The notes under the pieces: model-generated
What the model was told of the DNA's origin: nothing
The model's database searches: none
Seen by the model: only the letters and a program-made list of their open reading frames with translations
Source: a virus
Virus record (IMG/VR): IMGVR_UViG_3300028840_000998
Span: 1-37,141 of that record
Direction: 5' to 3' (one strand)
DNA: 37,141 bases
Position numbers and translations under genes: made by a program
Shown: positions 32,373-36,923 of the stretch, in pieces
How positions within the stretch are numbered: the stretch's first letter is position 1
Layout: every line of letters begins with the position of its first letter

Positions 32373-33019
32373 TGGCAGACAGTCAGAGCTTGCATGAGGC
32401 TTGCAAGGGTCTCTTGCAGGCAGGGGTGCCACTGGCAGGGTGCATGGTATATGTGGCCATGAGGTCATACCAAAACCAGGCCAGTGGCACTGCCTGGCCA
32501 AAGCAAGAGACTGTGGCAGATCAATGGCACATACCAATCAGGACACTCACAAGGTGGCTCAAGGTGCTTGAGGAAAATGGGCACGTCAAGGCCAAACGTG
32601 GGCAGCATGGCAAGGTATATACCTTTCCGAAAGTCAAAGGCAGGAAATCACGCAAAAGGCAGAAGAAAACCGGCCAGACACCTCAACCAGATATGCCACA
32701 TGTGGCCGATCTCAGCCAGGATGAGGCAGCCTCAGATACGCCACATATGGCTGATCTCAAAGAGCACCCAGACACGCCACATATGGCATATCAGAGCAAG
32801 GTGATGGTGCCTCTTTCAGATACGCCACATGTGGCCAGTCCAGATACGCCACATATGGCTGATCTCTATAAGGATGAACATATAGAAGTGAACCAAGAGA
32901 AAGAGAAACCCTCTGTGATAGTTACACCAAGACAGGCAGATGCAATGCTTGATGCCTTGGTGAGCAAGGGCAAAAAGGCAGCCAGAAAGGTTGACAGAGA
33001 TGGCAGAGCAAGACGTTGA
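32372..33019 (+). CDS. Replication initiator-like protein (winged helix) with iteron-encoded repeats
   Basis: Protein of 215 residues. Residues 42-76 (WPKQETVADQWHIPIRTLTR followed by WLKVLEENGHVK) form a winged helix-turn-helix of the HTH_36 kind found in phage replication initiators. Residues 107-165 contain five copies of D-T/M-P-H-M/V-A-D-L, encoded by the DNA iterons. A Lys-rich C-terminus follows and may touch the helicase. The next gene is a DnaB-like helicase. The layout (initiator gene with internal origin, then helicase) matches lambda O and P in principle, with a helicase in the P place. ATG 32372 lies in TGATG. Confidence 0.75.
   Translation: MADSQSLHEACKGLLQAGVPLAGCMVYVAMRSYQNQASGTAWPKQETVADQWHIPIRTLTRWLKVLEENGHVKAKRGQHGKVYTFPKVKGRKSRKRQKKTGQTPQPDMPHVADLSQDEAASDTPHMADLKEHPDTPHMAYQSKVMVPLSDTPHVASPDTPHMADLYKDEHIEVNQEKEKPSVIVTPRQADAMLDALVSKGKKAARKVDRDGRARR
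32690..32866. repeat. Five iterons, putative replication origin
   Basis: The unit is GAYACGCCACATATGGC plus a looser YGATCTC. Copies lie at 32690-32713, 32735-32758, 32771-32794, 32819-32841 and 32843-32866. In copies 1 and 4 the core GCCACATGTGGC is a perfect palindrome; in 2, 3 and 5 it is GCCACATATGGC. Spacings are 45, 36, 48 and 24 bp, all multiples of three, so the coding frame is kept. An AT-richer stretch follows (32867-32890). Placement inside the initiator-like gene is that of lambda ori. Confidence 0.8.
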
Positions 33020-34325
33020 CCAAGGCACAGAGCAAGGCACCCTCATGGCACCCCACTTTCTGCAGGGTGAGAGGCAGGTGCTTGCCAATCTGGTGTACAG
33101 CAATGGTGAGTGCAACAAGCCTCTTGTGATGGGCAGTCTCAGTGATGAGTGTTTCTTTGGGAAAGAAAGACGTGAGGTGTGGTGTGCTGTTGAAAGGCTG
33201 TGGCAGAGGCAAGAGCAAATTGACCCCTCTGCAGTGGCATATGAGCTGCAGAGGTTGGGCCATGCAAATGGTCAATCATTCCTGATACAGGCAGTGGGCA
33301 ACTGCCAGGTGATGCCCAATAGTGTTGAGTACAACCTTGACAGGTTGCTTGAGTGCAAGAAAAGACGCCAGCTCATGGCCACCCTTGGTGATGGTATGGC
33401 CAGATTGAGTGACCTTGACTCTGATGTTGATGAGGTGGCCATGAGCCTGCACCATGCAGTCATGCAGGGTGACACCATCAAGGAAAAGCCAGAGGAAAGG
33501 CTCAAGAGCACACTACATGCCATCATGGATGAGTATGGCCAAGAGCGTGATGAGGCTTGCCTTACCGGATTTCCAAGCATTGACTGTGCCATTGGTGGCC
33601 TTTTGCCTGGTGAGCTGGCTTTGCTGGTTGGCAGACCAGGTGCAGGCAAGACATGGCTTTGGCTCTCAATGCTGGCCAGCATCCTGAGGAAAGGCAAGAG
33701 CGTGATGATGGCCTCAGGGGAGATTGGCACAAAAGAGCTGTTGTGCAAGCTGGCATGCAGGGTGGGTGGGGTCAACTATAAACGATACAGGACAGGCAAG
33801 TTGACTGATGCAGACCTCAGGAAATTCACCTCTGCATGTGCTGAGTTGTCAGGGTACTCACTTCTGCCTGTGAGCAAGTCTGAGGCAAATACCCTCTCTC
33901 ATCTGCATGGCATGGCCAATCACTACAGGCCAGACGTGGTGGCAGTTGATGGGGTGTACCTATATGCACCTGGCAGAAAGGTTGAGGGTTGGGAGTACTA
34001 CCAGCAAATATCAAGAGACCTCAAGGCCATCAGCACAGAGTCTGAGTGTGTGGTGCTCTCAACCACTCAGCTTGGCAGGTCACAGAAAGTGGCTTTCTCT
34101 GATGCTTTCAGACAAGATGCCAGCCTCTTGGTGGCCATTGATGGTGAGCAACTGTGCTGCAAGACCAAGTGCAGGGCCATCAAGGCACGTGACAGTGGCT
34201 TTTTTCAATTCGGATTGTTTGTAGACTTTGAAACCAGCATGGTGGCAGAGCAAATGGCAGAGGGTGCACCAGTCACACCCTTTGCCAACCTTGAGCCAGC
34301 AGACCCAACAGAGTGCCCTTTCTAA
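33000..34325 (+). CDS. DnaB-like replicative helicase
   Basis: Protein of 441 residues, near the usual 440-470. The N-terminal domain (about 20-125) has the DnaB fold text: LQGERQVLANLVYSNGE, then CFFGKERREVWCAVERLW. The RecA-type core starts with TGFPSIDCAIGGLLPGELAL and Walker A GRPGAGKT (211-218); ASGEIGTKELLCKLACR and VVAVDGVYLYAP follow as the DnaB 'S.EM...L..R' and Walker B segments. It would unwind the fork after loading at the iterons. ATG 33000, nine bases after AGAAAGG, overlaps the initiator gene by 20 bases. Confidence 0.93.
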   Translation: MAEQDVDQGTEQGTLMAPHFLQGERQVLANLVYSNGECNKPLVMGSLSDECFFGKERREVWCAVERLWQRQEQIDPSAVAYELQRLGHANGQSFLIQAVGNCQVMPNSVEYNLDRLLECKKRRQLMATLGDGMARLSDLDSDVDEVAMSLHHAVMQGDTIKEKPEERLKSTLHAIMDEYGQERDEACLTGFPSIDCAIGGLLPGELALLVGRPGAGKTWLWLSMLASILRKGKSVMMASGEIGTKELLCKLACRVGGVNYKRYRTGKLTDADLRKFTSACAELSGYSLLPVSKSEANTLSHLHGMANHYRPDVVAVDGVYLYAPGRKVEGWEYYQQISRDLKAISTESECVVLSTTQLGRSQKVAFSDAFRQDASLLVAIDGEQLCCKTKCRAIKARDSGFFQFGLFVDFETSMVAEQMAEGAPVTPFANLEPADPTECPF

Positions 34326-34351
34326 CACACAACCAGAGAGGCAGGTACAAC

Positions 34352-35083
34352 ATGGCAGCCAAGGGCAAGAAAGAGTGCAAGAGAGCAACCCTCAAGAGGC
34401 TCACCAAGGTGCAGCTGGTTGACAGAGTGGTGCAGGCTGAGAGGCAGTGCACAGCATTCAAGAGCCACAGAGACAAGCTGCAGGTGCTTATTGGTACCCT
34501 TGAGAATGAGAGAGAGGGCCATGCCAATGATGCAGCCTCAAGATGCAGACAGCTTGAGCAACAGAGGAATGAGGCAACCAAGCTCTCACATGAGTGGCGA
34601 AACAAGGCAGAGAGGCTTGAGCAAACCCTGAGTGAGGCCAATGCACATGCAGGCAGGCTTGCAAAGAGACTTGACCAATCAGTCAATGTTTCTGATGGAT
34701 TGGTTGCAAGAGTCAGTGAGCTTGAAAATAGCAATGGCACTCTCACTGCCAAGTGTAGTGAGCTGAGAGGGGTACTTGAGCAAGAGAGGGCTGAGAGAGA
34801 CAGAGAGGGCCAAGAGTTTGCAAGGGTGGTGCACGAAAAGGGCAACGCTTTGGATGAGATGAGGGCCATGTTTGTCGCCAAAGATGATGAGTGGGCAGAG
34901 GCTGTTGATGCTCTTGCCTTGCAGAGAGCAAAGACTGAGGTGCTTGAGGGCATCATCATCAAGGCCATGCAGGGTGGCCAGGTGGTGCATGTCAGGTGTG
35001 GTGATAAAGAGGTGAGCAAGCCTGCATGGCTGCATGAGAAAGAGAGGGCACAAGATGAGCAATCAGATGTTTCTGGTGCCTGA
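34352..35083 (+). CDS. Long coiled-coil protein, unknown function
   Basis: Protein of 243 residues. Residues about 10-200 are a nearly continuous coiled coil (VQAERQCTAFKSHRDKLQVL, RLEQTLSEANAHAGRLAKRL, LRGVLEQERAERDREGQ) with a basic N-terminus (AAKGKKECKRATLKRLTKV). The C-terminus has a short Cys/His part (QVVHVRCGDKEVSKPAWLH). It may tether a replication or segregation complex, or form a filament. No family was recognised. The leader CCAGAGAGGCAGG supports ATG 34352. Confidence 0.7.
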   Translation: MAAKGKKECKRATLKRLTKVQLVDRVVQAERQCTAFKSHRDKLQVLIGTLENEREGHANDAASRCRQLEQQRNEATKLSHEWRNKAERLEQTLSEANAHAGRLAKRLDQSVNVSDGLVARVSELENSNGTLTAKCSELRGVLEQERAERDREGQEFARVVHEKGNALDEMRAMFVAKDDEWAEAVDALALQRAKTEVLEGIIIKAMQGGQVVHVRCGDKEVSKPAWLHEKERAQDEQSDVSGA

Positions 35084-35618
35084 TGGTGGAAAGAGGAAGA
35101 GACAGAGCATCATTGACTGTTGGGTCAAGGATGGCACCAAGCAAGTCATCATGCTCTGTGACGTTGAGTCTCTGTGCTTTGAGGTGCCCATCTGCCAGCA
35201 CTGTGATGAAAAATGGTGCTGCAGGGGTAAGTACAGACAGATGAGAAACCTTGCCAGCAAGGTCTGTGGCTGCCTTGGTGTTGAGGGCTGTACTGATTGG
35301 CCAAATGTGCCAGCTGTGTGCTTGCTGCACCCTTTCACAGTCAATGCCAGAGGCATGCTCACCCTGGTGCATGATGCCAGGCTGAGTGGTACGTGCTGGC
35401 GTGTTGGCAGTCTGTACCGTGCACCTGCATGGCAAGTGCACAAGACTGGCCTTGGCCATGGCTTTGGGGCAGAGTTTGTGGCACAGCTTGAGACATACAT
35501 GCCAAGGCATGACCAGGATGAGAGGCTTGGTGCATGGGTGAGGCTGGCTGATTTCAGGGCTGCAGCCTCACATGAGTTTGAGGTTGCATACCAAGGGGAG
35601 TGGCCGGATGAGAGCTGA
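35055..35618 (+). CDS. YkgJ-like Cys-rich protein, copy 1
   Basis: Protein of 187 residues from ATG 35055 (ATG 35034 possible). It has the Cys pattern of the YkgJ zinc/iron-chelating family: CQHCDEKWCC (47, 50, 55, 56), CGCLGVEGC (71, 73, 79) and a later CLLHPF (Cys89). The segment YRAPAWQVHKTGL near 121-133 is shared with the next gene (DRVPAWQAHRASL), so the two are likely tandem duplicates that have diverged. YkgJ proteins bind a metal or Fe-S centre; their chemical role is unclear. Context: immediately upstream of the second copy and the PAPS-reductase-like gene. Confidence 0.7.
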   Translation: MSNQMFLVPDGGKRKRQSIIDCWVKDGTKQVIMLCDVESLCFEVPICQHCDEKWCCRGKYRQMRNLASKVCGCLGVEGCTDWPNVPAVCLLHPFTVNARGMLTLVHDARLSGTCWRVGSLYRAPAWQVHKTGLGHGFGAEFVAQLETYMPRHDQDERLGAWVRLADFRAAASHEFEVAYQGEWPDES

Positions 35619-36123
35619 TGTGCAGAGGCTGCAAGGCAGACTCATGGCAAGGGTGAGGCTCAACATGAGATGGCTGATGTTCCCATTGCCTACATGTGAG
35701 GGCTGTGTTGAGGCCCCATGCTGCAAGGGTGTTGCCACAGGCAAGGTCAAGTGCTCACACTTGTTTGGTGCCAGATGCACCAGGTACAACACAAGGCCAC
35801 AGGGCTGCCAGTTGTATCCTTTCTTTATTGATGACAGCAGCACGCTCACTCTGTGCCCATCAGCTGTGTGGCTCACGTGCCTGCCTGCCAACCCTGATGC
35901 AGACAGAGTACCTGCCTGGCAGGCCCACAGGGCAAGCCTCACTGCATGTCTTGGTGATAGGCTGGTCACAACCTTGGCAGGTTGGGCTATGGACAGCAAT
36001 GGCCTCAACAGACTCTCAACCAATGGCGTGCTGCCTGTGGGTTTCATGCCTTGGCCTGACTTCCAATCATTGGCCAGCCTTGGTGGGCAAAGGGTGGTTG
36101 AGTTGCCACAGAAAGAGGTGTGA
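35608..36123 (+). CDS. YkgJ-like Cys-rich protein, copy 2
   Basis: Protein of 171 residues. The family motif is clear: CEGCVEAPCCKG (30, 33, 38, 39), CSHLFGARCTRYNTRPQGCQ, and LYPFFIDD, the 'RP..C..fP' end of YkgJ domains. The rest is hydrophobic and ends with a Leu/Gly-rich segment (PDFQSLASLGGQRVVELPQ). GGGGAG lies upstream of ATG 35608, with an 11-base overlap with copy 1. It probably binds a metal or Fe-S cluster. Working with its paralogue and the Fe-S-type PP-loop protein that follows is an inference. Confidence 0.8.
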   Translation: MRADVQRLQGRLMARVRLNMRWLMFPLPTCEGCVEAPCCKGVATGKVKCSHLFGARCTRYNTRPQGCQLYPFFIDDSSTLTLCPSAVWLTCLPANPDADRVPAWQAHRASLTACLGDRLVTTLAGWAMDSNGLNRLSTNGVLPVGFMPWPDFQSLASLGGQRVVELPQKEV

Positions 36124-36125
36124 GC

Positions 36126-36923
36126 GTGGGTCAGGATGCATGGCAGTTGACCCTTGATGGCAGAGACTGTGTTGACATGGCTGTTGAGCGTATCAAGATG
36201 CTTGAGCCACCTGATGGGTATGTGCTTGCTTTCAGTGGTGGCAAAGACAGCATTGCAGTCAAGAGGCTTGCAGACTTGGCAGGAGTCAAGTACACAGCCT
36301 GGTACAACAGCACAACCATTGACCCACCTGACCTGGTTGCTTTCATCAGAGAGCACCACCCAGATGTGCAGTGGCACATGCCTCAAGCCTCTTTCTTTCG
36401 GCTGTTGATTAAAGAGCGTTTCCCACCATTGCGCCATATCAGGTGGTGCTGTGGGCATCTCAAGGAAAACCATCTCAATGGGGTCATCTTGACTGGTGTG
36501 AGGGCACAGGAGTCACCAAGACGCAAGATGAGACGCATGACAGAGCCTTGCCTCAAGAAAGGTGCACACAGAGTGTTTGTGCATCCCATCATTGATTGGT
36601 CTGAGGCAGAGGTCTGGCAATTCATCAAGGCACAGGGCATGCCCTATTGCAGCCTATATGATGAGGGTTTCAAGAGGCTTGGGTGCCTTTTCTGTCCCAT
36701 GAAACCCACTGCAGACAAAGAGCGTGAGAGGGCACGGTATCCAAAGTATGAGCATGCTTTCAGGCTGGCATTCAAGAGGCTTTGGGATTTCAGACAAGAG
36801 AGAGGCATGACCCTTGAGAGATGGGCAGACAGTGATGCCATGTTTGAGTGGTGGCTCTTGCATGATGGCCACAGGTCAACCAAGAGCCAGGGTGAGCTTT
36901 TTTTCACAGAGGGTGGGGGGTGA
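36126..36923 (+). CDS. PAPS-reductase-like PP-loop ATP pyrophosphatase
   Basis: Protein of 265 residues. The PP-loop LAFSGGKDS lies near 35-42. The pair RWCCGHLKE (Cys108-109) and RLGCLFCP (Cys187, Cys190) gives CC-X77-CXXC, the layout that holds a [4Fe-4S] cluster in APS reductases; DndC-type proteins also belong to this superfamily. The reaction may be sulphate reduction, sulphur transfer or nucleotide/DNA modification, and sequence alone cannot decide. GTG 36126 is preferred to 36120 because its upstream context GAGGTGTGAGC is the same as before ATG 12289. Confidence 0.85.
   Translation: MGQDAWQLTLDGRDCVDMAVERIKMLEPPDGYVLAFSGGKDSIAVKRLADLAGVKYTAWYNSTTIDPPDLVAFIREHHPDVQWHMPQASFFRLLIKERFPPLRHIRWCCGHLKENHLNGVILTGVRAQESPRRKMRRMTEPCLKKGAHRVFVHPIIDWSEAEVWQFIKAQGMPYCSLYDEGFKRLGCLFCPMKPTADKERERARYPKYEHAFRLAFKRLWDFRQERGMTLERWADSDAMFEWWLLHDGHRSTKSQGELFFTEGGG

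Follow-up and report, generated by a model that had tools for sequence, protein, structure and literature searches.

A phage-type PP-loop protein with invariant cysteines of a predicted iron-sulfur site, encoded next to two YkgJ-like paralogues at the right end of a virus genome

The right end of this virus genome encodes two small cysteine-rich proteins reminiscent of the YkgJ family and a PP-loop protein reminiscent of PAPS reductases, in three genes that overlap head to tail on the plus strand as the last of a rightward replication operon, which raises the question of whether these genes constitute a functional unit or whether the PP-loop enzyme has a role of its own beside unrelated neighbours. 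The window (the whole stretch of DNA analysed, 37,141 bp) contains the complete IMG/VR record, and its genes include those for a lambda-type terminase and portal, a head maturation protease, a Sak4-like annealing protein, a replication initiator, and a DnaB helicase, the last of which, located upstream, places the trio at the end of the replication operon. The window gave no matches when scanned for Rfam families and tRNA genes. The features considered here are:

765-1169: 134-aa protein with 12 cysteines in several CXXC pairs, zinc-ribbon-like, located between a likely small-terminase gene and TerL
32991..34325, plus strand: DnaB-like replicative helicase (PF03796, E = 1.8e-21)
34313..35083, plus strand: coiled-coil-like gene upstream of Y1, which it overlaps by 29 bp in a shared operon
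35055..35618, plus strand, ATG start: open reading frame of Y1, a 187-aa YkgJ-like Cys-rich protein with 12 cysteines (CX2CX4CC ... C ... C..P..C; RAPAWQVHK), paralogue of Y2
35608..36123, plus strand: open reading frame of Y2, a 171-aa YkgJ-like protein (CX2CX4CC ... CTRYNTRPQGCQLYPF; RVPAWQAHR)
36120..36923, plus strand, GTG start: PP-loop (PAPS_reduct) protein of 267 aa, with SGGKDS at residues 39-44, CC at 110-111 and CXXC at 189-192, and without an ECGLH tail

The earlier note described three open reading frames at 35055-36923 on the given strand that overlap or lie within three bases of each other, and a check of the reading frames bore this out. The reading frame of Y2 opens at 35572, but translation more probably starts at the ATG at 35608, which is preferred because a good Shine-Dalgarno sequence (GGGGAG) lies just 5' of it; with this start the protein has 171 aa and its gene overlaps Y1 by 11 bp. 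The GTG at 36120 with which the PP-loop gene begins overlaps the stop codon of Y2 by 4 bp. Short gene overlaps are found across the entire window, the genome being compact, and so overlaps of this size provide little evidence for a special three-gene module.

Judged by its profile matches, the PP-loop gene adds a member to an uncharacterised family that is already known and is common in phages: its product is a clear member of PF01507 (84 bits, cut-off 22.5) and matches phrog_424 with 127 bits (E = 1.8e-36). Phage proteins of PHROG 424/PF01507, such as those of Methanosarcina virus MetMV and phage NatCom_17901, possess the same SGGKDS and CC...CXXC motifs and likewise lack ECGLH; they are often encoded near replication or methyltransferase genes, and the nearest examples are 36-51% identical to the window protein. 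Culturable carriers of a homologue include Bacteroides phage BF10P1 and Ruminococcus phage phiRgPS_6. The locus differs from those of MetMV and NatCom_17901 in having a YkgJ-like pair upstream and no methyltransferase detected in the record. In a set of 167 sequences, comprising the window protein and 166 relatives encoded at phage loci or genome loci, the residues C110, C111, C189 and C192 (CC-X77-CXXC) and also G41, K42 and D43 of SGGKDS are invariant (167/167). Profile alignment matches the CC and CXXC pairs to the four [4Fe-4S] ligand cysteines of the P. aeruginosa APS reductase CysH (2goy), with which the fold and the position of the PP-loop also agree. The AF2 model of the PP-loop protein is of high quality (pLDDT 90, pTM 0.86), and the best folds retrieved with it by Foldseek are PAPS and APS reductases and the PAPS domain of human FAD synthase, followed by the Fe-S thiolase TtuA. 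The description of a PAPS-reductase-like PP-loop protein with an Fe-S-type set of cysteines, made originally from the sequence alone, is upheld by the alignment with 2goy, the conservation and the fold. That the protein would bind a [4Fe-4S] cluster is well supported by these ligands, and we infer that the site is occupied. Members of the PP-loop superfamily adenylate their substrates using ATP, with release of pyrophosphate, and by analogy the same ATP-dependent chemistry is expected of this protein. PP-loop proteins encoded at L112:4929-6446, L114:4929-6446 and L115:410-1957, from gut Clostridia, have an extra C-terminal region of ~200 aa with no Pfam match.

Sequence comparison indicates that Y1 and Y2 are real paralogues that have diverged: the pair is aligned by BLASTP with E = 4e-11, and its alignment score of 114 exceeds the maximum obtained from shuffled sequences, both without constraint (56) and with the cysteines fixed (71; 2000 shuffles each). 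Compared with the rest of the window, neither has another match. Both contain C-X2-C-X4-C-C, then C, C and P..C, together with the motif R.PAWQ.H[KR], in agreement with the earlier account of two diverged copies sharing PAWQxHK/R. Y2 is likely a distant relative of the YkgJ family, as suggested by a phmmer match (E = 5e-4) between it and a protein of a Vibrio phage with the annotation IPR005358. Like PF03692, it has paired cysteines (CX2CXnCC) followed by C..Y..RP..C. The cysteine spacing of Y2 is CX2CX4CC and not CX2CX2CC, however, and its matches to PF03692 (16.3 bits, E = 0.016; 17.9 bits in another search) fall below the cut-off of 23; Y1 has no match to PF03692 (CxxCxxCC) and is tied to the family only via Y2. 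The YkgJ-like character proposed at the outset for both copies is supported, but assignment to the family is less secure than that proposal implied, Y2 being sub-threshold and Y1 undetected. The pair also differs from YkgJ in being two tandem, overlapping copies with a C-terminal PAWQxH motif. An AlphaFold model of Y2 with Y1 as its sole alignment partner (two rows) was uninformative (pLDDT 35) and so offers no fold support for a YkgJ identity. No close relatives of Y1, Y2 or the pair were confirmed in the viral_contigs and genome_contigs collections, and the phages collection yielded only matches with E values of at least 2. The flagellin lysine methylase FliB binds [4Fe-4S] through a YkgJ-type cysteine motif, CX4CX3CC (PMC8598068), the spacing of which differs from that of Y1 and Y2; by analogy, Y1 and Y2 probably bind an Fe-S cluster or a metal. 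The proposal that all three products are metal or Fe-S proteins is therefore well supported for the ligand set of the PP-loop protein, whereas for Y1 and Y2 it takes the form of this analogy.

The earlier note went further and suggested that the three genes could be a coupled module, and it called for a search of other phages for the same triplet; within the collections examined, the genes were rarely together, an outcome that the note had itself named as refuting the idea. At 160 loci gathered by homology to the PP-loop protein (80 viral and 80 genome), co-occurrence being assessed from the PP-loop side only, a convincing YkgJ-like neighbour was found by profile, phmmer or motif in none (0/160). 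PF03692 occurs anywhere in just 3 of 50 related phage contigs and is never adjacent to the PP-loop gene: in G034 and G022 the match lies >10 kb away, and in G001, which has the closest PP-loop relative (51% identity) and contig ends that share a 78-bp repeat, the YkgJ gene is ~4 kb upstream, where it adjoins genes for ParB and for an SPL-like radical-SAM protein. Within G001, the ParB-like, YkgJ-like and SPL-like radical-SAM genes stand in a row (L178:1878-4647, L179:4232-5596), and a ParB-methyltransferase-like fusion is encoded downstream of the PP-loop gene. Terminase-matched control contigs have no PF03692 (0/31), but because these controls are shorter and terminase-centred, 3/50 versus 0/31 is no meaningful difference and no enrichment is claimed. 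A reciprocal scan with other phage YkgJ proteins confirmed nothing. The neighbours of the PP-loop gene differ greatly among relatives (Louvain clustering, window excluded), and none of the other sequences examined showed the succession of Y1, Y2 and the PP-loop gene. From these comparisons, the three-gene grouping is probably not a conserved system.

The lack of YkgJ-like neighbours at the 160 loci, the few and non-adjacent PF03692 matches in related contigs beside none in the controls, the commonness of short overlaps throughout the genome, and the variable surroundings of the PP-loop gene are all consistent with the possibility, which we entertain tentatively, that the YkgJ-like pair is functionally unrelated to the PP-loop gene, each being separate accessory cargo in a right-end region of variable content. 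This explanation overlaps with the preferred one given below. It accounts less readily for two paralogues and a PP-loop gene that are consecutive and overlapping, each with paired cysteines, or for the presence in G001, a contig with terminal repeats, of a YkgJ gene with radical-SAM and ParB companions ~4 kb upstream of the PP-loop gene.

Relatives of the PP-loop gene give some indication of its role. In phage NatCom_17901, it is located between two DNA methyltransferase genes, overlapping one by 4 bp and the other by 14 bp; in MetMV, a methylase gene is ~0.9 kb downstream; and at L018:4890-6320, a single open reading frame encodes both a PP-loop domain and a domain that resembles N4/N6-methylases and contains the motifs GSGTT and HPPY (weak N6_N4_Mtase match, E = 0.015; sequence MDPMEGSGTTRD..., VFCHPPYADM). 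About half of the contigs carry a methyltransferase (PF01555 in 19/51, PF00145 in 8/51), at a median distance of 3.9 kb from the PP-loop gene versus 11.2 kb under random placement over whole contigs. Counted by distance from the PP-loop gene, 11 methyltransferases lie in the first 3 kb and 12 in the next 3 kb, and at viral loci the density of methyltransferases by distance is flat within 5 kb. The random-placement null is lenient because PP-loop and methyltransferase genes both favour the early region, and given this leniency and the flat local density, the association of the PP-loop family with DNA methyltransferases is treated as suggestive. The window has no matches to PF01555, PF00145, ParB or desulfurase, so the link to methyltransferases is drawn from the relatives. 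Because relatives adjoin or are fused to DNA methyltransferases, the PP-loop protein by itself may plausibly act in DNA modification or against restriction, and to that extent the earlier idea of a modification or counter-defence function survives; a coupled three-gene module is not supported. The papers found report no biochemistry for this phage family, the function of which is called unclear by authors, one account suggesting DNA metabolism on the basis of genomic position (PMC4642752; also PMC11437467).

The explanation preferred here, to which we assign a probability of about 0.5, is that the PP-loop gene encodes a phage-type Fe-S enzyme that modifies nucleic acids or serves to evade restriction, and that the YkgJ-like pair are lineage-specific neighbours. 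The gene product would be a [4Fe-4S]-binding ATP-pyrophosphatase with the PAPS-reductase fold but without the tail that bears the catalytic cysteine in genuine (P)APS reductases; encoded within the replication operon, it would most likely activate (adenylate) a nucleic-acid or nucleotide substrate, for a modification helping the phage genome to evade restriction. Y1 and Y2 would derive from one small YkgJ-like gene that was duplicated, and their adjacency to the PP-loop gene would be specific to the lineage, any functional link being putative.

A three-protein sulfur or metal module, in which the YkgJ-like proteins would supply electrons, metal or sulfur and the Fe-S PP-loop enzyme would thiolate DNA or tRNA, appears unlikely. 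Its appeal lies in the potential Fe-S ligand sets of all three proteins, in the appearance of TtuA, an Fe-S PP-loop sulfur transferase, among the fold matches, and in a remote match to DndC, but the triplet did not turn up in any other sequence examined, the match to DndC (TIGR03183) scores 18.8 bits where the cut-off is 290.4, and the window contains no cysteine desulfurase, though a host enzyme could serve. With PF00266 absent from the window and represented by 1 weak match in 51 contigs, desulfurase is essentially lacking, and so a self-contained thiolation system is not favoured. The DndC score and the undetected desulfurase partner also led to rejection of identity with DndC itself, leaving the kinship to which the earlier note pointed a remote one. 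The sulfur-linked defence proteins DndC, SspD and BrxP have the PP-loop superfamily in common with the window protein, which matches the BrxP profile with 61.8 bits confined to the PP-loop core.

A separate observation is the extreme scarcity of CpG and TpA throughout the genome. At a GC content of 52.6%, the window has an observed/expected CpG ratio of 0.12 (0.08-0.19 across every 2 kb), the lowest among all loci compared, with TpA at 0.31 and TpG/CpA at 1.84. At codon junctions (position 3 to position 1), CpG is 0.08 and TpA is 0.19, indicating that the depletion is a DNA-level effect and not one of codon choice. A fragment of a close relative, L093 (IMGVR_UViG_3300017963_001372; TerL 85% identical), has a similar signature (CpG 0.23, TpA 0.30, CpA 1.82, no GATC), indicating that the bias is a trait of the lineage or of the host. 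GATC occurs 16 times in the window versus ~105 expected (one strand); on both strands together, AGCAG/CTGCT occurs 11 times versus 136 expected, CCCAG/CTGGG 6 versus 84, and GAAC/GTTC 12 versus 103; and AGGCCT, GAGCTC and GGGCCC are absent, a pattern of avoidance resembling that of restriction sites. The avoidance of AGCAG is not common to L093. Extreme avoidance of CpG, TpA and GATC is at least consistent with heavy restriction pressure on the phage. That the trio itself is an undescribed Fe-S-dependent nucleic-acid modification system, with the YkgJ-like proteins as redox or metal partners of the PP-loop enzyme, and protects the phage under unusually heavy restriction pressure is quite unlikely.

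A genuine PAPS or APS reductase, as an auxiliary gene raising host sulfate reduction, would fit the PF01507 fold and the APS-reductase-type Fe-S ligands, but the catalytic C-terminal tail of the ECGLH type is present in none of the family sequences (0/167), which makes a working sulfonucleotide reductase very unlikely, and this absence together with scores far below the cut-offs of NCBIfam cysH (51.9 bits, cut-off 165.1) and APS_reductase (44 bits, cut-off 235.3) led to rejection of the reductase identity for a gene that, moreover, sits in a replication operon.

By itself, the YkgJ-like pair adds little until another example appears. Phage 'PAPS reductases' are commonly catalogued among the auxiliary genes of sulfur metabolism. 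The lack of ECGLH, the strict conservation of the Fe-S ligands among 167 sequences, and the repeated methyltransferase neighbours and one methyltransferase-like fusion argue that a large subgroup of this family is not of that kind, and that its products are probably nucleic-acid-modifying or anti-restriction enzymes.
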